DNA from: Bacteroidaceae bacterium
GTDB lineage: Bacteria > Bacteroidota > Bacteroidia > Bacteroidales > Bacteroidaceae
Direction: 5' to 3'
Length of the DNA stretch: 64,000 nucleotides
Assembly (NCBI GenBank): GCA_017464815.1
Contig: JAFTYI010000038.1
Location: 1 to 64,000, forward strand
Of this stretch, positions 7,992 through 63,633 are shown in pieces (position 1 is the stretch's first letter; the number at the start of each line of letters is the position of its first letter). The translations under genes and the position numbers were made by a program. Under the pieces are notes generated by a model. That model worked only from the letters and a program-made list of their open reading frames with translations, was not told the DNA's origin and made no database searches.

Positions 7992-7994
7992 ATA

Positions 7995-8821: not shown

Positions 8822-8839
8822 CAGCCGATAAGGTTACAA

Positions 8840-10331: not shown

Positions 10332-10339
10332 TATCTTTG
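10332..10339 (+). promoter_or_regulatory. ssrA promoter -7 element
   Basis: TATCTTTG lies 15 bases before the mature 5' end of tmRNA and fits TAnnTTTG. Confidence 0.7.
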
Positions 10340-10353
10340 CAGCGTGATATCAT

Positions 10354-10750: not shown

Positions 10751-10760
10751 CACTTGACTA

Positions 10761-10822
10761 AGGCACGGATTGCACGGATTAACACGGATTTCCAACTCCA
10801 TTTATCCGCGTAAGCCGTGCCT
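10761..10822. repeat. cacggatt-family inverted repeat after ssrA
   Basis: AGGCACGG (10761-10768) pairs with CCGTGCCT (10815-10822); between them ACACGGAT and ATCCGCGT extend the stem with interruptions. A T-rich run follows, so it can end tmRNA transcription. It is the least perfect of three copies in the window. Confidence 0.7.
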
Positions 10823-10858
10823 CTCTTTTTCTCAAGAGACGTAACGGATAAAAGAAAA

Positions 10859-11530: not shown

Positions 11531-11534
11531 GGGA

Positions 11535-13034
11535 TCACAGTTTCACGCTCTTCTTCACGGGCTTTGACTCGTTGTGAAGGCGGTCGAGCGCTGTCACAAC
11601 GTAGGTGTATTTGGCCTCGCCCCCCTGATAGGGCAGGTTGTAGAATGTCTGCGAAGTGATGGTCATAATCTTCGACGGGTCTTCCAGATTCACTTTTTCC
11701 CCCTTCTCAAACCGGTAAACCACATATTGGCGGGCACGGTCCATCTCGGTCTTTGCCTTGGGCGCTGTCCAGAAGAGGACGGGGCCATCCGTTGTCCACA
11801 CCACCTTCATCTTTTTCACCTTCTTCGGCGCCTCGTCATCCATAAAGGGGAAACGAGGTTGCAGGGCGGGATAGCGATGATAGTCGCGCTCGAGTGCCGT
11901 GCGATAGCCTCCGGCATTGTCGACCACCGCACTGGCGGGCCACTGGCAGCTGCCCTGGATGGACTTGTGGGCACGTTGCATCTGCATCTTGGTCTGCTGT
12001 TGGTGGATGTGGGGATTATTCAAGTCGGCATGTTGCACGGTGCGCATCACATCCTGTCCGATGAACAGGGGGCGGTTGGCCGTATGCCCGGCCCACCACT
12101 CGACCAGGGTGGCATAGTCGGCAGCCGTGTGTCCTATCTGCCAATAGACTTGGGGGATGTTGTAGTCGATCCATCCCTCGTCGACCCACAAGCGGATGTC
12201 GGCATAGAGCTGGTCGTAGTTCTGCAAGCCGTTCGTGTCGCTTCCCTGGGGGTCGCTCTTCTTGTTGCGCCAGATGCCAAAGGGACTGATGCCGAACTTC
12301 ACCCACGGCTTCACCGAGCGCACCGTCTGTTGCACCTCCCGTATCAGCTTGTTCACATTGTCGCGCCGCCAGTCGCCCCGGTCGGCAAACCCACGTCCGT
12401 AGGTGGCAAAGGTGACATCGTCGTTGAAGGGAAGGCCATCCACGGGATAGGGGTAGAAATAGTCATCCATGTGCAGGCCGTCCACATCGTAGCGGGTCAC
12501 AATGTCGGCCACCACATTGCAGATGTATTTGCGATTTTCAGGAAGTCCCGGGTCGAAGCAGAGCAAACCGTCGTAAGCCACAAAGCGCTCGGGATGAAGG
12601 CGGGCCGGATGGTTGGAGGCCAAGGCCGTGGTGCCCTTCGTCTTTGCCCGATAGGGATTTATCCAGGCATGAATCTCCATTTCGCGCCCGTGGCACTGCT
12701 CGACCATGAATTGCAGGGGGTCCCAATAGGGATTGGGAGCTTGCCCCTGCACGCCTGTCAGATAGCGGCTCCAGGGTTCGTACTCCGACGGGTAGAGCGC
12801 ATCCGCCTCGGGACGCACTTGGAAGATGATGGCATTGATGCCCGCCTTCTGCAGGCTGTCCAATTGTGAAGTCAGCGTCCGCTGCAACTCGGCACTGCCC
12901 ATGCCCATGAACTGCCCGTTCACACATTGAATCCACGCGCCACGAAACTCTCTTTTGGGTGCCACCTGTGCCATCACTGCTCCCGACAAACATGCTGCCA
13001 GAAGCATCAGTATAGATGTTTTTATTCTTTTCAT
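11535..13034 (-). CDS. GHL10 (DUF187) family glycoside hydrolase
   Basis: A 499-residue secreted protein (signal peptide about 1-22, ending AVMAQ). Residues 28-340 form the GHL10 TIM-barrel domain: REFRGAWIQCVNG at the start, INAIIFQVRPEADALYPS and GLHMDDYFYPYPV, where acidic residues near strand ends are the likely catalytic ones. Residues from about 405 look like a fibronectin type III module (VLFWTAPKAK to YVVTALDRLHNESKP). Members are thought to act on cell-wall or glycan substrates; the substrate here is unknown. Its promoter (13058-13065) lies close upstream. Confidence 0.9.
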   Translation of the reverse strand: MKRIKTSILMLLAACLSGAVMAQVAPKREFRGAWIQCVNGQFMGMGSAELQRTLTSQLDSLQKAGINAIIFQVRPEADALYPSEYEPWSRYLTGVQGQAPNPYWDPLQFMVEQCHGREMEIHAWINPYRAKTKGTTALASNHPARLHPERFVAYDGLLCFDPGLPENRKYICNVVADIVTRYDVDGLHMDDYFYPYPVDGLPFNDDVTFATYGRGFADRGDWRRDNVNKLIREVQQTVRSVKPWVKFGISPFGIWRNKKSDPQGSDTNGLQNYDQLYADIRLWVDEGWIDYNIPQVYWQIGHTAADYATLVEWWAGHTANRPLFIGQDVMRTVQHADLNNPHIHQQQTKMQMQRAHKSIQGSCQWPASAVVDNAGGYRTALERDYHRYPALQPRFPFMDDEAPKKVKKMKVVWTTDGPVLFWTAPKAKTEMDRARQYVVYRFEKGEKVNLEDPSKIMTITSQTFYNLPYQGGEAKYTYVVTALDRLHNESKPVKKSVKL

Positions 13035-13057
13035 CGCTTTCCTTTGTTTTTGCGTAG

Positions 13058-13065
13058 CAAAGATA
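13058..13065 (-). promoter_or_regulatory. Promoter -7 element of the GHL10 gene
   Basis: TATCTTTG on the minus strand, 23 bases before the ATG. Confidence 0.7.
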
Positions 13066-13124
13066 CAGAGAATATGGGAGATACACCAAGGATTATGAAG
13101 AAAAAAGCACCGTCGTCAGGATAA

Positions 13125-13304
13125 ACGTTGTTATCTCCCAAGGGTGACGATTGTTTCCGTGTGCTGCAACGTCGTTTCCCCACGTTATCCTCACGAGTAG
13201 TGTTAACAGGCGTCCCAGTACTTCCAAAGGAATACTCCAGTACTTCCTATATGGTACTACAGTACTTCTTAGGGAGTACTGGAGTACTTATTAGGAAGTA
13301 CTAG
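13125..13304. repeat. Two adjacent 22-base tandem arrays (ACGnnGTT and AGTACTT types)
   Basis: The gap between fba and the GHL10 gene holds no gene. Three loose 22-base units begin with ACG at 13125, 13147 and 13169. Four clearer ones begin with AGTACTT at 13217, 13239, 13261 and 13283; each is a near-dyad (AGTACTTC..GGAGTACT). The AGTACTT type recurs at 63726-63879. The rest of 13066-13377 shows nothing else. Confidence 0.8.
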
Positions 13305-13377
13305 CTTCAGACTTAAGCGTGGCTGATTATCTCTTGACATCTTCTGACTTACGCATCAGTAATGGAGGAGGGAGGAA

Positions 13378-13417
13378 AAGAAAAAAAAGGAGGCGCACCA
13401 CCTTGCGGGGGTACGCC
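13378..13417 (-). terminator. fba terminator
   Basis: On the minus strand GGCGTACCCCC and GGTGGTGCGCC form a GC-rich hairpin followed by a T-rich run (13389-13378). It begins 31 bases after the fba stop. Confidence 0.88.
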
Positions 13418-13447
13418 TTCTTGCTTTATCAAATCGTCGCAAACGGA

Positions 13448-14449
13448 TTATGCCAACTTGTTGTCGGAACCGAGAACGTTGATAATCTTGTGCTTGTACA
13501 TCTTCTCCATGTTCGTACGAGCGGGGCCGAGGTACTTGCGGGGGTCGAACTCAGCGGGCTTCTCAGCCAACACCTGACGAACAGCAGCTGTCATGGCAAG
13601 ACGAGAGTCAGAGTCGATGTTGATTTTGCAAACTGCGCTCTTGGCAGCTTCGCGCAACCACTCTTCGGGAATACCGATAGCAGCCTTCAAGGCACCACCG
13701 AACTTGTTGATGGTTTCAACCTCTTCCTGAGGAACTGAAGATGAACCGTGGAGAACGATGGGGAATCCGGGGAGCTTCTCCTCTACGGCCTTCAACACGT
13801 CGAATGCCAAGGGAGGGGGAACCATGCGGCCAGTAGCGGGGTCGATGGTGCACTGCTCGGGAGTGAACTTGTAAGCACCGTGAGAAGTACCGATTGAGAT
13901 AGCCAAAGAGTCGCAACCTGTGCGAGTAGCAAAGTCGATTACCTCTTCAGGGTTGGTGTAAGTGTGGTGGTCAGAAGAAACCTCATCTTCCACACCGGCC
14001 AATACGCCGAGCTCGCCCTCAACAGTCACGTCGAACTGGTGAGCATACTCAACAACCTTCTTAGTCAAAGCAACGTTCTCTTCATAGGGAAGGTGAGAAC
14101 CGTCGATCATCACTGAAGAGAAACCTGAGTCGATGCAGCTCTTGCAAGTTTCGAAAGAATCTCCGTGGTCGAGGTGAAGCACGATTTCGGGCTTTTCGCA
14201 ACCGAGTTCCTTAGCGTACTCTACAGCACCCTGAGCCATGTAACGGAGCAATGTGCCGTTAGCATAGTCGCGAGCACCACGAGAAACCTGGAGGATAACA
14301 GGAGACTTGGTTTCAACCGCAGCCTTGATGATGGCCTGCATCTGCTCCATGTTGTTGAAGTTGAAAGCGGGGATAGCATATCCGCCCTTGATGGCACGTG
14401 CAAACATCTCTTTGGTGTTCACAAGACCTAATTCTTTGTAATTTACCAT
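13448..14449 (-). CDS. fba: Class II fructose-bisphosphate aldolase
   Basis: This enzyme splits fructose 1,6-bisphosphate into dihydroxyacetone phosphate and glyceraldehyde 3-phosphate in glycolysis. The 333-residue length fits class II. Zinc and catalytic residues lie in VLHLDHGDS, with later motifs VEGELGVLAG, AISIGTSHGAYKF and IVLHGSSSVP. The N-terminus (GGYAIPAFNFNNMEQ) is typical. It is a single-gene unit with its own promoter (14493-14500) and terminator. Confidence 0.96.
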   Translation of the reverse strand: MVNYKELGLVNTKEMFARAIKGGYAIPAFNFNNMEQMQAIIKAAVETKSPVILQVSRGARDYANGTLLRYMAQGAVEYAKELGCEKPEIVLHLDHGDSFETCKSCIDSGFSSVMIDGSHLPYEENVALTKKVVEYAHQFDVTVEGELGVLAGVEDEVSSDHHTYTNPEEVIDFATRTGCDSLAISIGTSHGAYKFTPEQCTIDPATGRMVPPPLAFDVLKAVEEKLPGFPIVLHGSSSVPQEEVETINKFGGALKAAIGIPEEWLREAAKSAVCKINIDSDSRLAMTAAVRQVLAEKPAEFDPRKYLGPARTNMEKMYKHKIINVLGSDNKLA

Positions 14450-50994: not shown

Positions 50995-52041
50995 ATGAAA
51001 CAGAATACATTAAGCGTTAGCGGAGGAAACTCCATAAAATCACTCTATCAGGATGCACGCCGGATTATAGAGCAAGCTCGTAACAATGCAGTCCGCAGTG
51101 TGGACTTTTGCCGTGTGCAGATGTACTGGAATCTAGGCAGACGCATTTTTGAAGAAGAACAGCAAGGGAAGGAACGCGCAGATTATGGAGCATATTTGAT
51201 AAAGAACCTGTCAGCACAACTTTTGCCTGAATTTGGAAGCGGATTTGGAGTAAGACAATTGGAAACATGTCGCCAATTTTATAGGCTTTATCCAATTGCG
51301 CACACACTGCGTTCGCAATTGAATTGGAGCCAATACAGGCGTCTTATACAGATAGAAGACCCCGACAAACGTGAGTATTATGAATTGGAGTCTGTCAACA
51401 ACGCATGGACGGCACGTGAGACCGAACGACAAATTAACTCCATGCTCTATGAGCGTCTGCTAATGAGCAACGACAAGGAGAGCGTATTGGCCGTAGCTCG
51501 CAAACAACGTATTCCTGACTCCCCCACAGAAGTCATCAAAGACCCAATGGTACTTGAATTCTTAGGGCTTCACCGCGAATCAAGTTATTATGAGAAGGAT
51601 ATAGAGGGAGCGATAATCTCACACCTGACAGAGTTTCTGCTCGAAATGGGCAAAGGTTTCTCTTTTGTGGCTCGCCAGAAACGCATTCAGCTCGAAGATG
51701 ATGAATTCTTTGCCGACCTCGTTTTCTACAATCGTCTGCTACGCTGCCATGTAGTCATTGAACTGAAAACAGGCGAGTTGACACATCAGGATTTGGGACA
51801 ATTGCAGATGTATGTCAACTACTACGACCGCAACGAAAGATTGCCCTATGAGAATCCTACCATAGGCATTCTACTTTGTACGGCGAAGAACAACACTGTT
51901 GTCAAAATGACTTTACCCGAAGATAACAAAACGATTCTCGCCAGCGAATATAAGTTGTATTTACCTACTACAGAAGAACTCGTTAAGGAGATAGATGCAG
52001 TGAAGAAAATGGCAAGACAAAAGAAGGAAGAGGAAGTATAA
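50995..52041 (+). CDS. YhcG/DUF1016 family PD-(D/E)XK nuclease-like protein
   Basis: The 348-residue protein has the DUF1016 N-terminal helical domain (about 15-165, MYWNLGRRIFEEEQQGKERA, FGVRQLETCRQFYRLYPI) and the C-terminal YhcG PD-(D/E)XK domain (about 180-345): EDDEFFADLVFYNRLLRCHV with the Asp and VIELKTGELTHQDLGQLQMY with the ELK catalytic pair. Family members accompany type I restriction loci and defence islands; the function is unproven. It is read from the first copy of the duplicated promoter and followed by a relic of the XRE gene start. Confidence 0.9.
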   Translation: MKQNTLSVSGGNSIKSLYQDARRIIEQARNNAVRSVDFCRVQMYWNLGRRIFEEEQQGKERADYGAYLIKNLSAQLLPEFGSGFGVRQLETCRQFYRLYPIAHTLRSQLNWSQYRRLIQIEDPDKREYYELESVNNAWTARETERQINSMLYERLLMSNDKESVLAVARKQRIPDSPTEVIKDPMVLEFLGLHRESSYYEKDIEGAIISHLTEFLLEMGKGFSFVARQKRIQLEDDEFFADLVFYNRLLRCHVVIELKTGELTHQDLGQLQMYVNYYDRNERLPYENPTIGILLCTAKNNTVVKMTLPEDNKTILASEYKLYLPTTEELVKEIDAVKKMARQKKEEEV

Positions 52042-52065
52042 AAAAGAAAATGAATCAACAATATA

Positions 52066-52110
52066 ATGGCAAATCTGAACCGAATCATGGATAATATTGC
52101 AAACAAATAA
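52066..52110 (+). pseudogene. Relic of an XRE regulator start
   Basis: AACAATATAATGGCAAATCT at 52057 and the next 9 bases are identical to the start region of the XRE gene at 53677; the frame then diverges and stops after 14 codons (MANLNRIMDNIANK). It shows that the first YhcG gene was once followed by an XRE gene, as the Fic and second YhcG genes still are. Confidence 0.7.
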
Positions 52111-52114
52111 CGGT

Positions 52115-52420
52115 TCATTTATACATCTCTGGTCGTCTGGTTTTGTTATACTCTGCTATTCTTTGGCTTAGTTCTGAATCTGGCGGAACGATTTCATAAG
52201 AAGAACGATTGGAGTACATCTGTGCGTAATGCTCAGCAATCATCGTTCGAGCTTCATCCATGGTGATTTTTCCCTCTATTTCTTGACGAGCCACTTCAAT
52301 CAAGAAGTCAGACACACTAAGTCCATCCACGCGTTGCAGACCGATTGCAACAGCCCAGTTGCCAGCTCTTTCCCTGACTGATTCATCCGGGTGATTCCTA
52401 TATCCTTCAAATAATGCCAT
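52115..52420 (-). CDS. VbhA-like antitoxin domain protein
   Basis: A 101-residue protein whose middle (VSDFLIEVARQEIEGKITM and DEARTMIAEHYAQ) resembles the VbhA antitoxin family, small helical proteins that inhibit Fic AMP-transferases. Here it lies on the minus strand, convergent with YhcG and divergent from the Fic gene at 52624, with no Fic gene downstream on its own strand. It may be an orphan or may act on the nearby Fic protein. Confidence 0.65.
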   Translation of the reverse strand: MALFEGYRNHPDESVRERAGNWAVAIGLQRVDGLSVSDFLIEVARQEIEGKITMDEARTMIAEHYAQMYSNRSSYEIVPPDSELSQRIAEYNKTRRPEMYK

Positions 52421-52452
52421 ATTTTTCTTTCAAAGTTACGAAAAATCTACAA

Positions 52453-52519
52453 GATGGACAAAATTTGATGGTGTTATTCTTTATTTCACCATTATTTTAA
52501 TACATTTGCAGCAAATCTA
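52453..52519 (+). repeat. Duplicated 67-base promoter block, copy 2
   Basis: Identical to 50849-50915, with the ATGGTG/CACCAT dyad and TACATTTG at 52501-52508. It lies upstream of the small frame at 52536 and the Fic gene. Confidence 0.9.
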
Positions 52520-52535
52520 AATCCATTAGAACGAA

Positions 52536-52646
52536 ATGGCAAATCTGTATGACGAACAGAAACGCCAGAACGGTGAAGGCTCTGTACTGATGGATGAGAT
52601 GCAAAAGCATGGAAGGAACAAGAATGAGTACGGACTACACATATAA
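52536..52646 (+). pseudogene. Short frame, probable relic of a former gene start
   Basis: MANLYDEQKRQNGEGSVLM begins a 36-residue frame that runs into the Fic start. A matching stretch in another state (EQKRQNGEANMLVDEIQKA, then stop) lies after promoter copy 1 at about 50923-50982. The two look like remains of the same lost gene, or a conserved leader peptide. Confidence 0.45.
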
Positions 52647-53664
52647 CAAACTATTGGCATTGCTCGATGAGTATCATCGCTTAGGCATTGCAGAGCAGAT
52701 AGACTATCAGAAGTTCTATCTCTACTCGCTCATTACGCACTCCACCGCTATTGAAGGAAGTACAGTAACGGAGATTGAGAACCAATTGCTTTTCGATGAA
52801 GGTATTTCGGCCAAGGGCCGTAGCATTCAGGAACAGATGATGAACATCGACCTAAAAGCCGCCTACGAACGCTCCATGCAAATGGCTAGCCTGCATACCG
52901 ACTTTTCGGTAGAAATGCTTAAAGGCCTCTCGGCATTGGTGATGAAAAATACTGGCAGCGAATACCATACCCTACAAGGTACATTCGATTCTTCTAAAGG
53001 CGACCTCCGTTTGTTGGGCGTAACAGCCGGTGTGGGTGGTAGTTCATATATGAATTATCAGAAAGTACCTGCCAAGTTGGATGAGTTTTGCAAGCAGTTG
53101 AATGAACAAAGAAAAGCCTTGTTGCAAACCGATGATGTAATTGCCAAGTACCTGTTGAGTTTCGATGCTCACTTTCAGTTGGTCACCATTCATCCGTGGG
53201 TGGACGGTAATGGTCGTATGTCGCGATTGGTGATGAATCATTTACAATACGAGTTTGGCTTGATACCATCGAAAATTGTAAAGGAAAACAAAGCCGAATA
53301 TATTCAATCATTGACAGATGCCCGAGAGCAAGAAACATTGGCTCCTTATCGGGAATTTATGGTAGAAGAACATATCCGCAATTTGACCCGAGAAATTGAA
53401 TCTTTCAAGAAATCACAAGCTTCTGACCCGATAAATATAGCCATTGACCCGATAAACAAGTTCGCTGACCCGATAACAGAGCAACTTTATCAAGCAATCT
53501 TAAAAGATAACACGCTTAACTATGCAGCTTATGGCAAGCAGATAGGCATTTCAGAAGCTACTGTCAAGCGCCGTTTGGGTGAATTGAAAAAGTCCGGCCT
53601 TATTGTTCGTGTAGGAAGCAACAAGAATGGACATTGGGAGATTATTGACAAACAAAAAAAATAA
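52624..53664 (+). CDS. Fic family protein with built-in inhibitory helix
   Basis: The 346-residue protein carries the Fic core motif HPWVDGNGRMSR (H190), which transfers AMP or another nucleotide to a target. The N-terminal STAIEG (40-45) fits the (S/T)xxxE(G/N) inhibitory motif of class II Fic proteins, so it is probably self-inhibited. A C-terminal winged-helix region (IGISEATVKRRLGELKKSGL) suggests DNA binding. The start at 52624 is the first Met with a plausible ribosome site (AAGGAAC); the frame opens at 52594. An XRE gene follows 12 bases later. Confidence 0.9.
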   Translation: MSTDYTYNKLLALLDEYHRLGIAEQIDYQKFYLYSLITHSTAIEGSTVTEIENQLLFDEGISAKGRSIQEQMMNIDLKAAYERSMQMASLHTDFSVEMLKGLSALVMKNTGSEYHTLQGTFDSSKGDLRLLGVTAGVGGSSYMNYQKVPAKLDEFCKQLNEQRKALLQTDDVIAKYLLSFDAHFQLVTIHPWVDGNGRMSRLVMNHLQYEFGLIPSKIVKENKAEYIQSLTDAREQETLAPYREFMVEEHIRNLTREIESFKKSQASDPINIAIDPINKFADPITEQLYQAILKDNTLNYAAYGKQIGISEATVKRRLGELKKSGLIVRVGSNKNGHWEIIDKQKK

Positions 53665-53676
53665 GGAAACAATATA

Positions 53677-53877
53677 ATGGCAAATCTGAACCGAATAAAA
53701 GTAGTGCTTGTCGAACAACAGAAGACAGGCAAATGGTTGGCTGAACAGATGGGAAAATCCGCTTGCACAGTCAGCAAATGGTGCAGCAACTCCATTCAGC
53801 CCGATTTGGCTACATTGGATAAAATTGCCACCCTTTTAAATGTGGATAGACGAGAACTAATTGCACCCTCGAAATAA
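53677..53877 (+). CDS. XRE-type helix-turn-helix regulator, copy 1
   Basis: A 66-residue protein that is almost only an XRE helix-turn-helix: LVEQQKTGKWLAEQMGKSA, TVSKWCSNSIQPDLATLDKI, then VDRRELI. Such small regulators bind operator dyads. The ATGGTG/CACCAT dyad in the duplicated promoter is a candidate target. It is nearly identical to the protein at 55121 and lies 12 bases after fic and 17 before the second YhcG gene. Confidence 0.9.
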   Translation: MANLNRIKVVLVEQQKTGKWLAEQMGKSACTVSKWCSNSIQPDLATLDKIATLLNVDRRELIAPSK

Positions 53878-53894
53878 ATTTCATCGCAAAAGAA

Positions 53895-55118
53895 ATGACG
53901 CAAGAAAATAAAGACATACAGTCACAGACTGAACCATATATCGTGAAGTCACATGACATTCACATTGACAGTGACTATGCGGACTGGATAGCAGACATCA
54001 AGAATCGCTATCGTTCCGCACAGGTGAAGGCTGCTGTTAAAGTGAATGCAGAGAAACTTTTGTTCAATTGGGAACTGGGGCGTGACTTAGTACAAAAGAA
54101 AGCAGAAGAACGTTGGGGAGCAGGAGTTGTTGAACAGGTAAGCTTAGATTTGAAGCGAGAATTCCCTAATGCAGATGGCTTCTCCACTTCCAATCTGTGG
54201 TACATGAAGAAGTGGTATTTGTTTTATACTCAAGGAGAGGAAGGAATTCTGCACCAAGCTGGTGCAGTATTGCAAATACCTGAAAAACATCATGTTGTAA
54301 AACTCCACCAAGTTGGTGGAGAATTTAGTTCTGAGAGACTCCACCAGGCTGGTGGAGAATTTCCATCGCCTTTTGCGTTGGTACCTTGGCGGCATCATGT
54401 AGAGATTATAACGAAATGTAAATCTATCGACGAAGCATTATTTTATGTGGGCAAGACCATAGAGCAAGGATTAAGCCGTAATTCTCTTGCGAATTGCATC
54501 AAGGCAAACCTCTATGAACATCAAGGTAAGATAGTCAACAACTTTACCGACCATCTGCCTGCATTGCAAAGCAAACTTGTTCAGGAGGTTCTGAAAGAGA
54601 ACTATGACTTTGGCTTTGCCACGGTTGAGCACGAAATTTATGACGAAGCCGAGTTGGAAGAAGCTCTCACAAAGAATGTGACAGGCCTTTTGCTAGAGTT
54701 AGGAACAGGATTTGCCTTTCTCGGCAGACAGAAAGAACTTGTTGTGGGTGGTCAATCACGCAAGATAGACTTGCTGTTTTATCACATTCGCCTGCGTTGC
54801 TACGTCGTTTGCGAACTGAAGGCTAAGCCATTTGAACCCGAGTTTGCTGGTAAGTTGAACTATTACGTGAATGCCGTTGATGAATTGTTGAAAACGGACG
54901 ATGAAAACCCGACAATCGGCTTGCTAGTTTGCTCCGATATGGATAAGATTGATGTTCAATGGTCATTCAAAGGAATCTCTACTCCGATGGGTGTAGCCAC
55001 GTATAATAACATCAGAATCAAAGATGCCTTGCCGAGCCAAGAGCAATTAGCAGAGCGTGTACGTCTTTTACAAAAGGAGTTACAAGAAACAAAACGATTG
55101 ATGAATAAAAACAAATAG
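53895..55118 (+). CDS. YhcG/DUF1016 family nuclease-like protein with repeat insertion
   Basis: A 407-residue relative of the gene at 50995. The DUF1016 N-terminal part has LLFNWELGRDLVQKKAEER and FSTSNLWYMKKWYLFYTQ; the C-terminal PD-(D/E)XK domain has SRKIDLLFYHIRLRCYVVCE with E-L-K. Between them (about 118-155) an insertion of repeated LHQ(A/V)GGEF units is encoded by three DNA palindromes. It sits in the operon fic, XRE, yhcG, XRE with 2-17 base gaps. Confidence 0.9.
   Translation: MTQENKDIQSQTEPYIVKSHDIHIDSDYADWIADIKNRYRSAQVKAAVKVNAEKLLFNWELGRDLVQKKAEERWGAGVVEQVSLDLKREFPNADGFSTSNLWYMKKWYLFYTQGEEGILHQAGAVLQIPEKHHVVKLHQVGGEFSSERLHQAGGEFPSPFALVPWRHHVEIITKCKSIDEALFYVGKTIEQGLSRNSLANCIKANLYEHQGKIVNNFTDHLPALQSKLVQEVLKENYDFGFATVEHEIYDEAELEEALTKNVTGLLLELGTGFAFLGRQKELVVGGQSRKIDLLFYHIRLRCYVVCELKAKPFEPEFAGKLNYYVNAVDELLKTDDENPTIGLLVCSDMDKIDVQWSFKGISTPMGVATYNNIRIKDALPSQEQLAERVRLLQKELQETKRLMNKNK
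54249..54357. repeat. Three in-frame 19-base palindromes within the YhcG gene
   Basis: CTGCACCAAGCTGGTGCAG (54249-54267), CTCCACCAAGTTGGTGGAG (54303-54321) and CTCCACCAGGCTGGTGGAG (54339-54357) are near-perfect palindromes. Their spacings, 54 and 36, are multiples of 18, so they keep the frame and encode LHQ(A/V)GG repeats. Confidence 0.9.
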
Positions 55119-55120
55119 AT

Positions 55121-55324
55121 ATGGCACAGGATATAAATCGTATAAAAGTAGTACTTGTTGAACAACAGAAAACAGGTAAATGGTTGGCTGAGCAATTGGG
55201 CAAATCCGCCTGCACAGTCAGCAAATGGTGCAGCAACTCCATCCAGCCCGACTTGGCTACATTGGATAAAATCGCTACATTGTTGGATGTGGATAGGAGA
55301 GAATTGATTGCGCCTTCAAAATAG
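55121..55324 (+). CDS. XRE-type helix-turn-helix regulator, copy 2
   Basis: A 67-residue near-duplicate of the regulator at 53677, differing mainly at the N-terminus (MAQDIN instead of MANLN) and two conservative positions. It begins 2 bases after the second YhcG gene. Keeping an almost identical regulator behind each effector gene suggests module duplication or recombination. Confidence 0.9.
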   Translation: MAQDINRIKVVLVEQQKTGKWLAEQLGKSACTVSKWCSNSIQPDLATLDKIATLLDVDRRELIAPSK

Positions 55325-55405
55325 GGCCTATTTAAACAGTTCTAATGTAAATGTGAAAGATTAGTTAGGGCATTAAAGAATATATATTGTTTATAATAGG
55401 GTAAT

Positions 55406-56446
55406 ATGGCAACCAATAAAAATGCATCTATACGTTATCGAGCATTAGATAAATGCTTTCGTGATTATCGTCATCGTTATTTCATAGAAGATTTGATTGA
55501 CAAATGCGAAGAGGAGTTGGAATCATTCAACTTCACTGCTAATGTGAGTCGTCGTCAGATATTTGATGATATTCGTTTTATGGAAAGCGAAGCGGGATGG
55601 AGCATACCGCTTGATAGATTAAAAGAAGGGAAAAGAACATATTACCGTTATTATGATAAGGATTTTACCATTAACGAACAACCATTGACAGACGAAGAGG
55701 CCCAGCAGTTCAAGACAATGATTATTACTCTTAGTCGTTTTCGTGGTTTACCAAGCAACGCATGGGTTGAGGAATTAATATCAAATCTTGAGTGGCGTTT
55801 TAATTTGAAAGGGAAAAATGAGAACATTGTTTCATTTGAACAAAATCAAGACTTAAAAGGAATAGACAAACTTGGGGAGATACTTGATGCCACATCCAAT
55901 CATCAAGTATTAAAATTACTATACCATAATTATAAAAATGGTGGCAGAGACATTTCTTTCATTCTCCATCCTTACTATGTAAAGCAGTTTAATAATCGTT
56001 GGTTCCTTTTGGGGTTAAACGATGAGTATAAAACAATATCTACCATCGCATTGGATAGAATAGTAGAAATGGAGATTACAGAGAACATTCCCTTTATTCC
56101 CAACGAGCATGTTGACTTCGAGCACTATTTCGACGATGTAGTTGGAGTTACTATTCCCAAGGATGATATTGCAAAGGAGCATATAGTTCTAAAATTCTCT
56201 AAGGAAAGATTTCCGTACATCACTTCCAAACCTATCCATCATTCTCAGAAAACAGAAAGCGAAGATGAATGCATTATTAGTATTGAAGTTCGTCCTAATC
56301 GAGAGTTAGATGCTCAGATTCTTTCTTATGGCTCTGATGTTGAGGTGTTGGAATCAGCAGCTTATTGCGAACATATTTCTAAGATAATTGAAGAAAACTT
56401 CAAAAAATATTTTGCCGTGCAGGATAACTGCACAAAAGGGATGTAA
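55406..56446 (+). CDS. WYL-domain transcriptional regulator
   Basis: A 346-residue regulator with an N-terminal winged helix (about 8-65, NVSRRQIFDDIRFMESEAGW) and a WYL domain (about 160-250: LLYHNYKNGGRDISFILHPY, FNNRWFLLGLNDEYKTISTI). A WCX-like C-terminal part follows. WYL proteins of the BrxR/CapW type repress defence operons and release on a nucleic-acid signal. It lies directly upstream of the methylase-kinase gene, with a dyad overlapping its own stop that may be its operator. Confidence 0.9.
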   Translation: MATNKNASIRYRALDKCFRDYRHRYFIEDLIDKCEEELESFNFTANVSRRQIFDDIRFMESEAGWSIPLDRLKEGKRTYYRYYDKDFTINEQPLTDEEAQQFKTMIITLSRFRGLPSNAWVEELISNLEWRFNLKGKNENIVSFEQNQDLKGIDKLGEILDATSNHQVLKLLYHNYKNGGRDISFILHPYYVKQFNNRWFLLGLNDEYKTISTIALDRIVEMEITENIPFIPNEHVDFEHYFDDVVGVTIPKDDIAKEHIVLKFSKERFPYITSKPIHHSQKTESEDECIISIEVRPNRELDAQILSYGSDVEVLESAAYCEHISKIIEENFKKYFAVQDNCTKGM

Positions 56447-56454
56447 TTTTGCAG
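56428..56454 (+). promoter_or_regulatory. Dyad over the promoter of the methylase-kinase operon
   Basis: CTGCACAAAA and TTTTGCAG form an imperfect dyad (56428-56454) covering a TAATTTTG -7 element (56444-56451). The ATG follows at 56477. Its position suits an operator for the WYL protein or another local regulator. Confidence 0.5.
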
Positions 56455-56476
56455 CGTAAACCAAAAAACAATACTC

Positions 56477-58954
56477 ATGACAGCAGTAAAAGACAATAGA
56501 CCATCGGCCAAAGTAATGCAAATCCTTTATGCTTATGCAAACAGAGCTCGTATAAAGGGCTTCTTTAATGATTGTTGGATTAGACTATTTGTTTCTTTGG
56601 AGTATTATTGGATACATGTGTTAAACGAAGGCGAAATTACGATAGATGAAAGAGTTTTTGATATTTTATCTAATTATATATTCGATGTTGTAGAGGAATT
56701 CGGTGAAGAAGATTTATCTACTCTCATTGAAGGCGAAGACAATATTTTAGTATTGGAATATTGTTGCAACATGTTTGATAAAGACATATTGTCGAATAAT
56801 ACAGCCGAGCACTCACAACCTGAAGCTCTTACTAATTTTATTTGTAAACTTCTTGATATCGAAGATGGAACTTCTATATATATGCCATTTTCTGGCTATT
56901 GCTCAGAGATTGTTGAACTAAAGAAAATGGATATTTCCTGTGATATTGAAGGAGAGGAATTATCTTCGTTTGCTTGGGCAATATCAATATTACGACTTGA
57001 AGCAAATTGTGTTTATTTTAATAATAGCAAAATTAGTGCTAAAATTAAAAATTCAGATTCATATAAAAATCTTTTAGCAGTAGATAAGCTATTCAATTAT
57101 GTTCTTTTTACCCCTCCTTTTGCATTCAAAACTCCTGATGGGTATGACGAATTTGATGCTGTGCGTATGGCTATAGAGAACAAATTGATAGATGGAGGTA
57201 AGTTGTGCTGTATATTACCCTCGTCATTTTTATACAACAACAGCAAAAGTGTTATACGATTAAAAGAATACTTGATAAACAACAGGTATTTACGTTCTAT
57301 CATTTCATTGCCTCAAATTTTTGCACCTATCACACAAATCAACACAATAGTTTTGTTAGCAGAAAAGTGCGAAGGAGAAAATATCGCTCTTGTTGATGGA
57401 AGCAGTTTTGTTACAGAAGGTCTAAAAGAAAATGGTGGAGGACGTTTAAAAGCCGAATCATTGTACGAAACCATAGCACAATTTGATGAGAAATACGTAT
57501 GGGTGGGTAATTATGATGAGTTAAAAGATGATCATAACCTTTCTCCTGCGAGATATTTGATAAATAAAATTCTTCCGACTCCGCAACAGGGAGAAGTTTT
57601 ATTACCGATTAAAAGTTTAGTGGACATCGTTCCTTTAGTACGAGTTGAGAATAGAGAAAATAATCGCCAACTTCTAGGCATGGCAGAACTCTCTAATAAC
57701 TATCTTAACTGTAATATTTCTGTGAACAATATTCCAACAAAAAGGAGTATAAGTTCCAAATGCATAAAAGACAACTGCCTATTGGTGGGATATATTGGAG
57801 GAAAATTCAAAGTTGGAAGCCTCACTGAGAATCTTGAAAATTTTTCTATTGAGTTAAGACAGGAAATAATTCCCATTAAACTCAAGGAAAACATTAGCGT
57901 AGCAATAACTGAGGATTTCTTGCTTCGATGCATTATGTCTGAATATTGTGAATTGCAAGCTTCAATGTATGCAAAAGGTAGTACTATTAAACGTATTAGC
58001 ACCGATGACTTCTTAAATATAAGTATAATAGTTCCTTCTCTCGATGAGCAAAGACGTTTATGCAAAGACGATACTCGTGCTAGTTTAACTGAAGCAGATA
58101 GAAAACTTTTGGAATCTTTTGAAGATTTCAGAAAAGACATGCATATGAAAAAGCATGCGATTGGACAAACTCTGTTTAATCTTAATAATTGGTGGGATGC
58201 TTTGCAGCAGGCCAGAAAAGAAGGTCACGGAATCGTTTCTGATGATGCTACAACTGGTCGAATACGCAAAGTCTCAGTTTCATCCATTTACGATAGTTTG
58301 CAAAAAACAATCAATCAACTTCAACAGCAAATCAATAAGTTTGACCGTGGGAATGGGCTTTCTGTAAAAAGATTTGCTTTAACAGAGTTTATTGAAGATT
58401 ATATTTTACGAAAGCAAAGTCCTCTATTTACGTTTTCTTACAACTCTGCATCACATCGTGCATCACAATCTTTACCTGAAATAGAGTATGACGAAATTAC
58501 AAATATTGCTTGTGAAACAGGCAAAATCATACTAAATGTGGGAGACCCAATAGAATATATAGAGTTTGCTCCTGATGCTTTGGAAATAATCTTCGACAAT
58601 ATTGTGAGCAATGCATGTTGTCATGGCTTTAAAGATTCTTCGGATAAGCACTATATTATAAAAATAGAGCTTAAACCTGAAGAGAATAATTATGTGGTAA
58701 TCATTTCCAATAACGGAGATGCTATACATAGCCAAATTAAGCCTAATGAAGTTTTTGTCTATGGAAAGACATCTAAAATGGGGAAAGGTTCTCATGAAAA
58801 AGAAGCACATTTTGGGATTGGTGGTTATGAGATACAAAAGTTAATGCGTGAATTCGGAGGCGATGCAGAATTTATATCAGATTCAGGATCTGATTTCCCC
58901 GTTTCATACAAGCTAACTTTCTATAATACTAACATTGAAAATGTTGAATTATGA
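56477..58954 (+). CDS. Fusion: HsdM-like methylase, HsdS-like recognition domain and histidine kinase
   Basis: This 825-residue protein joins three parts. Residues about 10-305 follow the HsdM layout (helical N-terminus, HSQPEALTNFICKLL, SAM-site region IYMPFSGYCSEIVE at 134-147, FTPPF at 211-215, GGKLCCILPSSFLYN), but both motifs are degenerate: no GxG, and T replaces N/D in the PP motif. Residues about 370-528 look like an HsdS target-recognition half (YAKGSTIKRISTDDFL, IIVPSLDEQRRL). The end is a histidine kinase: a DHp-like helix with H560 (MKKHAIGQTLFNL) and a HATPase domain at 690-815 with N-box N708/N712, SNNGDAI and HFGIGGYEIQKL. The stop overlaps the next start by 4 bases. No known family combines these. 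Confidence 0.8.
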   Translation: MTAVKDNRPSAKVMQILYAYANRARIKGFFNDCWIRLFVSLEYYWIHVLNEGEITIDERVFDILSNYIFDVVEEFGEEDLSTLIEGEDNILVLEYCCNMFDKDILSNNTAEHSQPEALTNFICKLLDIEDGTSIYMPFSGYCSEIVELKKMDISCDIEGEELSSFAWAISILRLEANCVYFNNSKISAKIKNSDSYKNLLAVDKLFNYVLFTPPFAFKTPDGYDEFDAVRMAIENKLIDGGKLCCILPSSFLYNNSKSVIRLKEYLINNRYLRSIISLPQIFAPITQINTIVLLAEKCEGENIALVDGSSFVTEGLKENGGGRLKAESLYETIAQFDEKYVWVGNYDELKDDHNLSPARYLINKILPTPQQGEVLLPIKSLVDIVPLVRVENRENNRQLLGMAELSNNYLNCNISVNNIPTKRSISSKCIKDNCLLVGYIGGKFKVGSLTENLENFSIELRQEIIPIKLKENISVAITEDFLLRCIMSEYCELQASMYAKGSTIKRISTDDFLNISIIVPSLDEQRRLCKDDTRASLTEADRKLLESFEDFRKDMHMKKHAIGQTLFNLNNWWDALQQARKEGHGIVSDDATTGRIRKVSVSSIYDSLQKTINQLQQQINKFDRGNGLSVKRFALTEFIEDYILRKQSPLFTFSYNSASHRASQSLPEIEYDEITNIACETGKIILNVGDPIEYIEFAPDALEIIFDNIVSNACCHGFKDSSDKHYIIKIELKPEENNYVVIISNNGDAIHSQIKPNEVFVYGKTSKMGKGSHEKEAHFGIGGYEIQKLMREFGGDAEFISDSGSDFPVSYKLTFYNTNIENVEL

Positions 58955-60288
58955 TAACAGACGTTATATATAAGGTCCTTTGGGTAGATGACCAAAACAA
59001 GGATGAAGATGGCATGTTGACTGAATTCTATGAAGGTTGGCAATTAAAAGCTGATAAATACAACATAGAACTCGTTCCTTTTGATAATTGGGAAGAAGCC
59101 GAGTATTCATTGAGAAAAGATTTCGATGAGTATTCAGCCATTATTCTCGATGCAAATTGTAAGATTCACAAGAATGACACAGAGCAAGAAGAATTTATCA
59201 CTGCTGTTCTTCCTTCTTTGACTAATATATTTGGTGAGAAACGCAAAGTTTTGCCTTGGTATTTATTATCCGCTGGTACAATGTCAAATTTCGGTAAAAT
59301 TGTGAGCGGTGCGCGCTATCAACATTCAAAGCACGAAGAAGATTGGGGAACAATGCTTTACCTCAAAGACGCGGATGATAGTAGCGACAATGCTCCTTCC
59401 ATACTATTTGAGAATATTGCGAGAATTGCGAAAGATTTAGCTATGAATGTTGTTCTATACCGACATCATGACACATTTTGTTACTTAGGGAAAGAGAAAC
59501 TTATAGATGCTAGAGCAAGGACATTGATGCTTCGTATGCTAAGTGCATTGTATTATCCCGAAGACAATATCAAATATGAGTATGCGGGGAATCCTTTACG
59601 CAAGGTTTTGGAATATACCTTCCGAAGTGCAAGAACAAAAGGACTACTGCCGGATGAATGTTTTAACGGAGACGAAGTTGCAGTTCAGCTTGCAAGTCTT
59701 TTCATGGCAGGATATAATGTTAGATACGAAGAAGATGGCATTAAAAAACAAATCAGATGGGGGAACTCATCACCTGATCCAAAAATAAAAGTTGGAGATG
59801 CAATATTTCCACAAGAGATTACGAATCTTGTCAATAGTATTCGTGAATATACAAACTTAGAGTCGCATACCAATGAAGATGAGCCATGGTATATAGATGA
59901 AGAGCGTAAAGACAGTTTCTTTGGTCATGTACTTCACATGTGTTATGTTATTAAATGGTTTGGGAAATATGTGTCAGATCATCCGAATGTAGCAGAAAAC
60001 AAGAAAATGCATCAGAGAATTAATGCATCTTGTGAGAGTAAGTCTATTAATAAAGACAATGCGACGGACCAGAAACCTCAAGTGAAAATAGAGGATTTTA
60101 AAGGAAAAACTTACCCTGTGCTTAATGCTGGTAAATTCTTTTATGCTGGATGTTGCAAATTGTCTTCAGATTGTAAAGAGACTCTTAAAGTCAGTGATAG
60201 AATCATGATACTAAAAGCGATAGAGAATATGGATGAAGACAATGCCAAATATCCATTTGTGGCAATCAAAATCAAAAAGTCAATATAA
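58951..60288 (+). CDS. Receiver-domain protein with HEPN-like C-terminal region
   Basis: The 445-residue partner of the kinase begins with a receiver domain holding all expected residues: D13-D14 (LWVDDQN), phospho-acceptor D67 (AIILDANC), S107 (YLLSAG) and K139 (LYLKD). The remaining 280 residues are unlike common response-regulator outputs. A motif at 298-306 (REYTNLESH, R-x3-N-x3-H) followed by helices recalls HEPN-type domains such as DUF4145, many of which are RNases. The ATGA overlap with the kinase gene implies translational coupling. I infer a phosphorelay from kinase to this effector. Confidence 0.75.
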   Translation: MITDVIYKVLWVDDQNKDEDGMLTEFYEGWQLKADKYNIELVPFDNWEEAEYSLRKDFDEYSAIILDANCKIHKNDTEQEEFITAVLPSLTNIFGEKRKVLPWYLLSAGTMSNFGKIVSGARYQHSKHEEDWGTMLYLKDADDSSDNAPSILFENIARIAKDLAMNVVLYRHHDTFCYLGKEKLIDARARTLMLRMLSALYYPEDNIKYEYAGNPLRKVLEYTFRSARTKGLLPDECFNGDEVAVQLASLFMAGYNVRYEEDGIKKQIRWGNSSPDPKIKVGDAIFPQEITNLVNSIREYTNLESHTNEDEPWYIDEERKDSFFGHVLHMCYVIKWFGKYVSDHPNVAENKKMHQRINASCESKSINKDNATDQKPQVKIEDFKGKTYPVLNAGKFFYAGCCKLSSDCKETLKVSDRIMILKAIENMDEDNAKYPFVAIKIKKSI

Positions 60289-60320
60289 CCAGCTGTTTTC
60301 TTTTATTTGGAACATTACGA

Positions 60321-60425
60321 ATGACAGTACAGGTTTTCACTAAAGGTGATTACAAGAAGATTATTTTGCCCATGATGGAGCTTCGGCGTTTGGACATATT
60401 AATGACATATTTCTGTTATGTTTGA
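60321..60425 (+). pseudogene. Fragment of a type I methylase (hsdM) start
   Basis: A 34-residue frame contains FTKGDYKKIILPMMELRRLD, the pattern of the HsdM N-terminus (DYKxVILPxxxLRRLD). It stops soon after. It suggests a conventional type I methylase once stood here. The remaining 190-base gap holds nothing else. Confidence 0.55.
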
Positions 60426-60476
60426 TGCTTCCTTTAAAAAGTTTGACTAGTTTTAACAAATTAATATTAGTAGCAT

Positions 60477-62612
60477 ATGAAAGGCGATGCACAACCATTA
60501 ATAAAGTTCTTTGATGGCTCAGACAAACGATTCATCATTCCTCTTTACCAGCGTAATTACGACTGGAAAGAAGAGAACTGTGAACAGTTGTTTCAAGACT
60601 TGATGAAACTCCATAATAGCGACCGTAGAAGTCACTTCTTTGGCAGCATTGTGTCAAGTATCCAATCTGGGACAGAAGACAGATTTATTATTGATGGCCA
60701 ACAACGAATTACAACTGTTTCTTTGTTGATGATTGCAATGGTGAATGCCAAGAAAGAAGGACAGATTGAAGCTACTGACGCTAAACTTGTAGAGAAAATC
60801 TTCAAGCGTTATTTAGTGGATGAATACCAAGAAGACGAACGTAAGGTGAAGCTTAAACCTATAAAGAAAGATATGCAGGCCTTTGATGCTTTGCTGTATA
60901 AACCCAAAGAACAATACATCAAAGAATCGAATGTCACTCGTAACTACGTCTTCTTCTATGATAAAATCACTCGTGCAGGATTAACAATCGATGAACTCTT
61001 TGAGACCATCAAGAAATTGGAAGTAATCAATATCCGTCTTGACGAAGATGATGACCCACAGTTGATATTCGAAAGTCTGAACTCAACTGGTCTTGATTTG
61101 AGTGAAGCAGACAAGATACGTAATTATCTATTAATGTCACTCGCACCAACAGAACAAGATGATTTGTACACTCGATATTGGAATCCTATAGAAGAGTTTA
61201 CAAAATATGATCCCTCTTCTTTTGTACGCGATTACCTGACCATGAAGCAAGGAAAGATAGGTCGTATCAATAAGATTTACTTTATTTTCAAAGAGTATGC
61301 CGAGGCTGCAAATATCGACAGAGCAACGCTTTTGGAAGAAATGCATCACTATGCCAAGATATACAGCCAAGTGGATAATGCCATGATAGGTACCGATAAA
61401 CTAAACAGAAAGCTGAACCAACTGCGCACGTTGGATTCTACTGTTGCTTATCCATTCTTTATGGCATTCTTTGACCATGCATCAAAAGTGGGATTAATAG
61501 AAAATGAGATTTATCGTGTACTTGATGTCATTGAAGCTTACTGGGCACGCAGAATCATCTGTAATCTCCCATCAAATGCGTTAAACAAGGTGTTCGCAAC
61601 ACTCCATAGAGATGTATTGAATCACGTCAGCAAAGCAGGCGAAGATGCTGTACCTTCGTATATTGAGGTGCTGACCTACGTCTTATTGAAGAAAGGACGT
61701 TCTTCAGTCTTCCCATCTGATGAAGAGGTGCGTGGTGACTTTAAAACTCGTCAGGTTTATAAGATGCCAGCTAATGCCCGTATGTTTATTCTGGAGCGTA
61801 TGGAGAATCAAGATAATAATGAACGGCACGATGTGGTAAAGGAGTTGACAGATAAGAATATAACCATAGAACACATTATGCCACAGACTCTGTCAGACAA
61901 GTGGAAAACGGCGTTGGGAAATGACTGGGAAAGAATTCATGAACAGTATCTTCACACAATGGCAAACCTCACCCTTACTGGTTATAATTCTCAATATAGC
62001 AATCTTACTTTTATTGAGAAAAGGGACATGGAGAAAGGTTTCAAGGATAGTGCCTTCCGTTTGAATAATTCTGTGAAATCGTGTGAGCAATGGACGGGAA
62101 AAGAACTAAAAGCACGTCAGGAAGAACTGTTAAATGTGTTCATGCGCCTTTGGCCAATGCCAACTACGACATTTGAACCCTTGAAACGTGAAGTAGAATC
62201 AGCATCGCTTGATGATGAAGACTATGAGTTTACTGGAAAAAAACTTCAGGCATATATACTTCATGGGGTCAGATATACTGTTAATACTTGGAAGGAAATG
62301 CTCATTCAAGTTTGTGGACACATTTTATTGGAAAAACGTTCAACTATTGAATGGTTATGCGCTAATGAGAATCATGGTTTTTCACAAACATCTGAATCTT
62401 GGAGAAAGGAATTAGCTCCTAATATGTATGTTTGGACAGACAACAGTACATATACTAAAATAAATATTCTTAGAGGAATGCTAAATGAATGCAATATTCC
62501 TCTGTCTGAGTTGTTTTTTGAGTTCAGAGCAGATGTAGTTGATGAAGATGAAGATGGAATGAGGAACATGAAAAATGGTATTGACTATATAGAATGTTAT
62601 GGAAAAGCGTAG
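60477..62612 (+). CDS. GmrSD-type DUF262/DUF1524 protein
   Basis: The 711-residue protein has the DUF262 ParB-like domain (IPLYQRNYDW and IIDGQQRITT at 71-80, then IFESLNSTGLDLSEADKIRN) and the DUF1524 HNH-type domain (ITIEHIMPQTLSDKWK, HTMANLTLTGYNSQYSN). GmrSD and BrxU proteins of this layout cut modified phage DNA in a nucleotide-dependent way (type IV restriction). A C-terminal region (about 600-711, YILHGVRYTVNTWKEMLIQV) is of DUF5655-like type. It follows the receiver gene by 188 bases and overlaps the rhuM-like gene by 14. Confidence 0.9.
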   Translation: MKGDAQPLIKFFDGSDKRFIIPLYQRNYDWKEENCEQLFQDLMKLHNSDRRSHFFGSIVSSIQSGTEDRFIIDGQQRITTVSLLMIAMVNAKKEGQIEATDAKLVEKIFKRYLVDEYQEDERKVKLKPIKKDMQAFDALLYKPKEQYIKESNVTRNYVFFYDKITRAGLTIDELFETIKKLEVINIRLDEDDDPQLIFESLNSTGLDLSEADKIRNYLLMSLAPTEQDDLYTRYWNPIEEFTKYDPSSFVRDYLTMKQGKIGRINKIYFIFKEYAEAANIDRATLLEEMHHYAKIYSQVDNAMIGTDKLNRKLNQLRTLDSTVAYPFFMAFFDHASKVGLIENEIYRVLDVIEAYWARRIICNLPSNALNKVFATLHRDVLNHVSKAGEDAVPSYIEVLTYVLLKKGRSSVFPSDEEVRGDFKTRQVYKMPANARMFILERMENQDNNERHDVVKELTDKNITIEHIMPQTLSDKWKTALGNDWERIHEQYLHTMANLTLTGYNSQYSNLTFIEKRDMEKGFKDSAFRLNNSVKSCEQWTGKELKARQEELLNVFMRLWPMPTTTFEPLKREVESASLDDEDYEFTGKKLQAYILHGVRYTVNTWKEMLIQVCGHILLEKRSTIEWLCANENHGFSQTSESWRKELAPNMYVWTDNSTYTKINILRGMLNECNIPLSELFFEFRADVVDEDEDGMRNMKNGIDYIECYGKA

Positions 62613-63633
62613 AGAAATAAGAAATAGCACAGCAGAGTTCCTAATCTTTCAAATTGAAGGGAAGGAACAAGGTGTTGAGGTCTATTACAAAGATAAAACT
62701 GTGTGGTGTACGCAGAAGGCAATGGGGATACTTTTCGATGTGAACATACCTGCAATAAGCAAGCACCTTAAAAACATTTATGAACAGGGAGAACTCACAG
62801 AAGAGCGAACTGTTTCCAAAATGGAAATAGTTCGAATGGAAGGTAATAGGCAGGTTAAACGAGAAACTGTGTTCTACAATCTCGATGCCGTTATCAGCGT
62901 CGGTTATCGTGTGAACAGCATTCGTGCAACTCAGTTCCGTCAATGGGCAACGAGCGTATTGCGAGAGTTCGCTATACGTGGTTATGTCTTGGATAAGAAG
63001 AGAATGGAGAATGGCTCGTTCCTTGGCGAAGATTATTTTGAGCATCTGTTGGCTGAGATACGGGAGATTCGACTATCGGAGCGTCGATTCTACCAGAAAC
63101 TGACAGACATCTATGCCACTGCCGTTGACTACAATCGGGATGCACCAACTACGCGAATGTTTTTCAAGATGATGCAAAACAAAATGCATTATGCCGTTCA
63201 CGGACGAACAGCGGCAGAGCTGGTTGTAGAACGAGCCGATGCGGAACAAGAGCACATGGGGTTGACTTCGTGGGAGAATGCGCCGGATGGTAAAATCGTA
63301 AAGACTGATGTGGTGATTGCCAAAAACTATCTGATAGAGGCTGAACTGGCCGATATGGGGCAGTTAGTGAATGGTGTGCTTGAATTGGCTGAAAGAATGG
63401 CAAAACGTCATATTCCTATGACCATGGAAGACTGGGCAAAGCGGATAGACACCATTTTGGTTGCTGGTGGAAACGAAGTTCTACAAACTGCAGGGCAAGT
63501 GACTGCCGAACAAGCAAAAGAACATGCCGAAACGGAGTTTGAAAAGTATCGTATCATACAAGACCGCCTGTTCCAAAGTGATTTCGACAGATATATGGAC
63601 GCTCTTCCTTTTGAAGAAGGGCCTAAAGAATAA
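62599..63633 (+). CDS. rhuM: RhuM family protein
   Basis: A 344-residue member of the RhuM (virulence_RhuM) family, first seen in a Salmonella pathogenicity island and common next to restriction loci. VWCTQKAMGILFDVNIPAIS and KHLKNIYEQGEL form a DNA-binding-like N-terminal part; YNLDAVISVGYRVNSIRATQ and FRQWATSVLREF are the family signature. The C-terminal half (RFYQKLTDIYATAVDY, RTAAELVVERADAEQEHMGL) is helical. Function unknown. Its start lies inside the end of the GmrSD gene, indicating translational coupling. It closes the island. Confidence 0.9.
   Translation: MEKRREIRNSTAEFLIFQIEGKEQGVEVYYKDKTVWCTQKAMGILFDVNIPAISKHLKNIYEQGELTEERTVSKMEIVRMEGNRQVKRETVFYNLDAVISVGYRVNSIRATQFRQWATSVLREFAIRGYVLDKKRMENGSFLGEDYFEHLLAEIREIRLSERRFYQKLTDIYATAVDYNRDAPTTRMFFKMMQNKMHYAVHGRTAAELVVERADAEQEHMGLTSWENAPDGKIVKTDVVIAKNYLIEAELADMGQLVNGVLELAERMAKRHIPMTMEDWAKRIDTILVAGGNEVLQTAGQVTAEQAKEHAETEFEKYRIIQDRLFQSDFDRYMDALPFEEGPKE

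Follow-up and report, generated by a model that had tools for sequence, protein, structure and literature searches.

A stretch of 64,000 nucleotides from a Bacteroidaceae bacterium (GenBank assembly GCA_017464815.1, contig JAFTYI010000038.1, positions 1 to 64,000), referred to here as the window, encodes a histidine kinase built on a type I restriction methyltransferase and, in the gene directly after it, a receiver protein. We regard it as somewhat probable that this pair works as a two-component system that reads DNA by means of a retired type I methyltransferase and that has become associated with restriction and other defence loci. Such pairs occur in some Bacteroidota, and the combination of a worn-out methyltransferase that looks suited to holding particular DNA, a kinase, and a receiver, often near antiviral genes, suggests that a former restriction enzyme is used as a sensor. 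The sequences and models show the domain make-up of the two proteins, the conservation of their signalling residues and the loss of the methylase motif, the pairing and co-variation of kinase and receiver, and their repeated association with restriction genes as well as, in one case, with a CRISPR locus.

A methyltransferase-like histidine kinase and its receiver

The kinase gene (56477..58954, on the forward strand like the other parts of the pair) encodes an 825-amino-acid protein that is an HsdM-like core followed by half of an HsdS and a histidine-kinase end, an anatomy backed by Pfam, PDB profile search, and the predicted structure. The HsdM-like methyltransferase region (residues 109-361; 56801..57559) is recognised as N6_Mtase by Pfam and in motif tables, and the HsdS-like target-recognition half (residues ~374-520; 57596..58036) by a Pfam Methylase_S match slightly below cut-off, PADLOC Specificity_I models, the PDB profile match 5ybb_D, and the model. 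A single predicted helix (residues 522-582; 58040..58222) runs out of the HsdS half in the model, the block having a predicted local distance difference test score of 67-92, and model and alignment place H560 (codon 58154-58156) on this helix. The HATPase_c catalytic/ATP-binding domain (residues ~631-815; 58367..58921) is supported by Pfam, alignment, PDB profile, and model. A structural-neighbour listing for the kinase model spans residues 38-542; the best fold matches by Foldseek are 7eew and CamA (E 2.6e-23 and 1.2e-16, respectively).

H560 is kept in all 22 aligned kinases, three of which are of a shortened form described below, and the ATP-site residues N712, H716, F718, N745, G747, G780, and G782 are likewise invariant (22/22). 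The HATPase_c match of the window protein lies slightly above the Pfam cut-off, and 21 of the 22 members match at E <= 0.01. Motif IV of the window fusion, in turn, reads TPPF and not [N/D/S]PP[Y/F/W], and so lacks the form looked for in an active N6-adenine methyltransferase. The strict [NDS]PP[YFW] pattern is absent from 19 of the 21 examined fusions with a methylase region, the window included (L038 and L075 retain it), and present in 10/10 genuine HsdM proteins encoded at the same loci. Since the signalling residues are invariant, the methylase motif is mostly lost, and the methylase region is gone altogether in loci L045-L049, selection seems from these alignments to hold the signalling parts while releasing the methylase chemistry.

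The receiver gene (58951..60288; 445 amino acids) overlaps the kinase gene by ATGA. Its product consists of a receiver domain (residues ~5-162; 58963..59436; D67 codon 59149-59151), to which the fold listing for its model is confined (residues 5-164 only), a helical, DUF4145/HEPN-like output domain (59428..59988) and, in longer receivers only, a small beta-rich C-terminal tail (60088..60285), seen in the alignments and as strands at 387-443 in the model. D67, K139, R217, and E221 are invariant in 21/21 aligned receiver proteins, while R217, E221, and H306 of the output domain are invariant in 22/22 sequences of alignment A10, which leaves L041 out and takes L094 and L115 in. Between them, the two proteins thus carry the marks of a two-component system: a HATPase_c domain with N and G boxes, a histidine in a helix, and a receiver with its D and K. 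A sequence-only reading of the window had proposed a degenerate methylase and half-HsdS fused to a histidine kinase, a HATPase at the C-terminal end, and a receiver partner, all of which these profile, structure, and alignment results uphold.

The assignment of the output domain comes from an hhalign match to DUF4145 (score 29.2, E 6.4e-4, probability 28) against a small profile of 9/10 fetched sequences, one of them below the Pfam cut-off. Controls scored lower: no more than 16.3 in 30 column shuffles, 14.0 with the WYL profile, and 15.1 with the kinase profile. In the alignment, the stretch that holds the invariant R, E, and H falls on the R-E and H regions of DUF4145. DUF4145 is a HEPN superfamily member found fused to restriction endonucleases, and Rx4-6H is the RNase motif of HEPN proteins, though families with altered motifs are noted (PMC3710099, excerpts). 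This motif is present in 1/22 output domains and absent in 21/22, so that an active HEPN RNase as the output is unsupported and a binding or regulatory role appears, from the sequences, equally likely; a toxic effector role for the receiver protein is conjectural. Against solved structures, the tail profile gave four rows, led by a viral protein that looks unrelated (E 0.012). At L041 (9440-10252), the receiver protein has 270 amino acids, stops before the conserved histidine, and adjoins an HsdR gene, possibly as a decayed copy.

Kinase and receiver occur together. The receiver gene stands directly after the kinase gene in 26 of the 27 loci collected (in L038 the contig stops where the kinase gene finishes, and the receiver of L048 is cut by the contig end), which bears out the expectation that the same pair would be found in other Bacteroidota. 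When searched against 395 genomes, a receiver profile matched 13, twelve being exactly the genomes with the fusion and the thirteenth, G458, having a related kinase adjacent. Distances between kinases and between receivers correlate at 0.916 over 20 loci, a value reached by 0/2000 permutations; as such permutations retain shared ancestry, comparisons with WYL and HsdM serve as controls. The kinase-WYL correlation is 0.136 over 13 loci (273/2000 permutations). In a nine-locus subset, kinase and receiver correlate with r 0.745 (6/5000 permutations) and kinase and HsdM with r 0.054 (1664/5000), leaving joint descent of the kinase and the neighbouring HsdM unsupported. Kinase and receiver thus diverge in step, while neither WYL nor the neighbouring HsdM keeps pace with the kinase; this pattern makes the pair look like a portable module, one that became attached to restriction systems of unrelated kinds.

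Genomic settings and related pairs

The 27 loci carry the fusion or its shortened form and comprise the window, L004, L035 (the same contig as L043), L036-L039, L041, L042, L044-L049, L070-L080, and L127. The number of independent events is lower, L045-L049 being one syntenic group and L004 representing three plasmid records with the same match. Sources were 393 genomes of the order (fusion as query), 395 genomes of the phylum (family profile), GTDB contigs, plasmids, and phage records. The fusion matched 86 of the 393 genomes, with the methylase and later parts in one frame in six (the window's own, G315, G333, G157, G052, and G336), which were read; methylase-only, HsdS-only, and ATPase-only rows were left out. 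The family profile matched 239 of the 395 genomes, of which at least 12, the window's own included, extend into the kinase part, and long frames matching the methylase part only were excluded. The GTDB contig scan, seeded by a two-row alignment and thus favouring close relatives, gave nine loci, one of them (L043) identical to the L035 contig. In a further search of 391 genomes, 26 matched; G458, G974, and G849 were read, the other listed rows covering the receiver part only. Among plasmids, the window fusion matched 16 records, only three Myroides records covering most of it; these three alone matched the L037 and L072 receivers, and none matched the window or L077 receivers. A viral contig scan with the fusion yielded one pattern match and no relative. 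Left out were the L041 receiver from the distance tests, L078 (5' end cut) and L004 from A7 and A8, L046 and L048 as near copies of L045, and L038 for want of a receiver sequence.

Restriction genes were recognised in the stretch read at 15/27 loci, a raw count made with part of the neighbour genes scanned by Pfam. Type I genes are the commonest neighbour (12/27 loci: L004, L041, L044, L070-L076, L079, L127), while other kinds are GmrSD at the window, type III Mod/Res upstream of L036, and McrBC at L078. Around the window pair, Pfam identifies YhcG, Fic, YhcG, and WYL, then GmrSD and RhuM, and finds no HsdM, HsdS, and HsdR set of a type I restriction-modification (R-M) system among these neighbours. 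The defence surroundings anticipated from GmrSD and RhuM are therefore present at the window, but these two genes are not conserved parts of the locus. Window positions 50995-63633 form a compact defence-type island with a small helix-turn-helix gene (55121-55324) between YhcG and the WYL module, and a Schlafen/AlbA_2 gene lies further along the window contig (L040, 4413-6029).

The WYL-domain transcriptional regulator of the window (346 amino acids; 55406..56446, forward strand) scores 34.5 bits for WYL and 39.7 bits for WCX, both above the Pfam cut-off. WYL genes of this kind adjoin the pair in 13/27 loci, divergently in three (L072, L077, L079); L039 and L042 have one at a distance of one open reading frame, and in L070 five genes separate it from the pair. 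The upstream WYL gene is thus a recurrent companion, adjacent or one frame away in 15/27 loci, but not one that follows the kinase in its divergence. DUF7255 genes adjoin the pair in two divergent loci (L037, 4028-4408; L039, 10861-11508), where they may be accessory genes.

Relatives of the pair are found with other inputs. In G458 (L094), the pair is flanked by Csm5 on one side and Csx1/Csm6-Cas6 on the other, within a type III-A locus (pair and type III-A genes at 1170-10188) with an array of ~30 repeat units (12021-14375), and its kinase has a different N-terminal part, an input region of ~500 amino acids. In G974 (L115, 4777-8019), a 435-amino-acid kinase with a sub-threshold GIY-YIG match (E 0.023) stands with a receiver of the same family. 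Ahead of them lies a gene that matches RtcR (E 9.2e-8) and, weakly, Csm6-CARF (E 0.0051). Both cases suggest that the kinase-receiver core is common to different sensors in defence settings.

Proposed mechanism and alternatives

In the mechanism we propose, two fusion proteins would pair via the long helix continuing from HsdS into the histidine-kinase helix, and the paired HsdM-half-HsdS arms would clamp a bipartite DNA site, as half-S enzymes such as 7eew lead one to expect. Since most members have lost the methylation motif, the arms would report on DNA, for instance on unmodified sites in incoming DNA, and not modify it. DNA binding would change the helix, upon which the kinase would autophosphorylate on H560 and the phosphate would be passed to D67 of the receiver protein; the DUF4145/HEPN-like domain would then act on, or together with, the adjoining restriction or defence machinery, and the WYL protein, where present, would regulate expression. 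From the features described above we infer the ligand (DNA), the phosphotransfer, the kind of output, and the antiviral role.

Several observations weigh against this two-component reading. An acidic residue right after the histidine is seen in only 4/22 kinases and missing in 18/22, and the G1 box of the ATP site is N-x-G. The acidic residue belongs to the HisKA type, with some kinase classes doing without it, and the usual reading of the G1 box is D-x-G, so that canonical autophosphorylation is not assured. The recognition half has no special likeness to other HsdS proteins in the window genome (best E 0.118), and across nine loci (L127 outside the comparison) the HsdS of the own locus is its best match in only one (L073, E 0.016), which gives no support to a target site shared by the fusion and the neighbouring HsdS. 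Besides lacking Rx4-6H, the output domain returned four rows against solved structures, the best at E 0.055 and none convincing. Twelve of the 27 loci have no recognised restriction gene in the stretch read. Receiver and HsdM distances correlate somewhat in the nine-locus subset (r 0.474, 81/5000 permutations), making shared descent of some loci possible. Finally, L045-L049, from Bacteroidales metagenome-assembled genomes, lack the methylase region while keeping the HsdS half, kinase, and receiver (about 8950-11775; 4785-7596 in L047), and sit in one conserved chromosomal place with no defence gene recognised. At L045, the pair lies between Met_synt_B12 and LpxK genes; this group looks like a case of domestication.

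The alternative that survives best, and which we hold to be a real contender although short of an even chance, is that the pseudo-enzyme senses methylation of host sites and the receiver switches restriction, as in establishment control or alleviation, the DUF4145-like domain perhaps docking on the R-M complex. In its favour, as in that of the main reading, HsdM follows the receiver directly in nine loci (L004, L044, L070-L073, L075, L079, L127) with gaps of -8 to +71 nucleotides, spacing that makes co-transcription of receiver and hsdM likely. The HsdM types concerned are unrelated, and the comparisons are most simply explained if the pair came to stand at this position beside unrelated R-M cassettes on several occasions, a recurrence that speaks for a shared function. 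L127, whose fusion is 37.3 % identical over 99 % of the window protein, has the order WYL, fusion, receiver, HsdM, HsdS, HsdR; the start of its HsdR resembles, by eye, the DUF4145 of other HsdR proteins, though Pfam gives no DUF4145 there at E <= 0.001. Control of restriction fits less well with the 15/27 loci, window included, that have no type I gene in the stretch read, with relatives in CRISPR and orphan settings, and with a recognition half that shows no special likeness to the neighbouring HsdS.

Unlikely, in our estimate, is a guard against anti-restriction, in which the dead HsdM-half-HsdS would be a decoy for the DNA mimics Ocr and ArdA or for R-M inactivation and the receiver would trigger a second defence. 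The best structural match, 7eew, is an intact methyltransferase solved with Ocr, and PrrC offers a parallel, being silenced by a type Ic R-M system and freed by the Stp peptide of T4 (PMC3710099, excerpts); the output domain, however, lacks the RNase motif. We think it distinctly improbable that the GHKL domain is a paraMORC-like clamp of an ATP-dependent DNA machine, with the receiver as a structural partner and no phosphotransfer. The mostly non-acidic residue after the histidine and the N for D in the G1 box would suit such a machine, and GHKL ATPases linked to R-M systems are known (PMC8011034 and PMC3710099, excerpts). The histidine nonetheless lies in a long helix before the ATPase and is invariant, as are the receiver D and K, and the kinase-receiver correlation of 0.916 speaks for a signalling pair. 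A housekeeping regulator, with the two-component system binding DNA in core gene regulation and its defence neighbours acquired by hitch-hiking, is the least probable reading, for although L045-L049 have lost the methylase and share one chromosomal place, with Met_synt_B12 and LpxK genes as neighbours at L045, they look like one lineage-specific group, 15/22 other loci have a restriction gene in the stretch read, and the pair is also found on a mobilizable Myroides plasmid (L004) and on an apparent conjugative transposon (L127, so judged from two integrases and TraM). The L127 record (MT835483.1) is labelled as a phage but is probably none.

Relation to known systems and significance

Detocs likewise follows a defence-type two-component logic with a receiver-fused output, differing from the window pair in sensor and output. 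It has an additional stand-alone receiver protein, DtcB, while no stand-alone receiver gene lies beside the window pair, whose neighbours are WYL and GmrSD. The Vibrio vulnificus type I-type methyltransferase 7eew and CamA combine an HsdM-like core and a recognition domain in one chain, as the window fusion does, but these are named methyltransferases, whereas motif IV is absent in 19/21 fusions and a histidine kinase is appended. Of the pairs described so far, the HEF_HK/Response_reg_2 families (PF19191/PF19192) come closest, being likewise a soluble kinase-receiver pair linked to R-M genes, but their kinases have mostly a paraMORC HATPase_c_3 and the pair is found especially with C5-cytosine methylases and Vsr (PMC8011034, excerpts); neither family is among the Pfam matches of 22 kinases (E <= 0.01) or 21 receivers (E <= 0.1). 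At L116 (G849, 4466-7823), an HEF_HK match at cut-off stands with an adjacent receiver (Response_reg_2 below cut-off) that has no output domain of the window type, and by eye 500-1741 resembles a C5-cytosine methylase and 7804-8235 Vsr.

For the receiver, the best match is PorX (PDB 8tef and others), also a receiver fused to a non-DNA-binding output, which there is a PglZ domain (PMC12839542, excerpts) and here the DUF4145/HEPN-like helical domain. PrrC with EcoprrI is a comparable HEPN-superfamily partner of a type I R-M system, but is an ABC-ATPase/HEPN nuclease with no phosphorelay (PMC3710099, excerpts), whereas the window output domain has no Rx4-6H. In excerpts of PMC12839542, the one histidine kinase brought up is attached to Schlafen RNases of BREX loci, and excerpts of PMC7159879 and PMC10799925 contain no methylase-kinase fusion. 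In PADLOC 2.0.0 (2023), the best 25 of 49 matches of the fusion are all to partial type I methyltransferase or specificity models, and the receiver matches no family. No description of an HsdM/methylase-kinase fusion was found in the open-licence literature (subscription papers and preprints being outside this scope), in agreement with the initial judgement that no named system has this architecture.

Histidine kinases are best known as sensors of small molecules, light, and envelope stress. Here a site-specific DNA-recognition enzyme serves as the input; its catalytic motif is lost, while the kinase and receiver residues are kept. As a broader and more tentative proposal, the pair may belong to an immune two-component family whose shared kinase-receiver core is combined with varied sensors of nucleic acids and whose HEPN-derived output acts on the neighbouring defence. 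The sensors would be a dead restriction methylase at the window and, elsewhere, a half-HsdS by itself, a GIY-YIG-like domain next to RtcR/CARF, and the different input of the III-A CRISPR locus. The finding offers a testable idea of what degenerate HsdM-like proteins may be doing in defence islands, and it draws attention to a receiver output domain that has not been described. If the pair works as proposed, the presence or modification state of particular DNA could be converted into a phosphate signal, and a phosphorelay could switch restriction, CRISPR, and other defences; under the family reading, bacterial immunity would report infection via DNA-reading histidine kinases.

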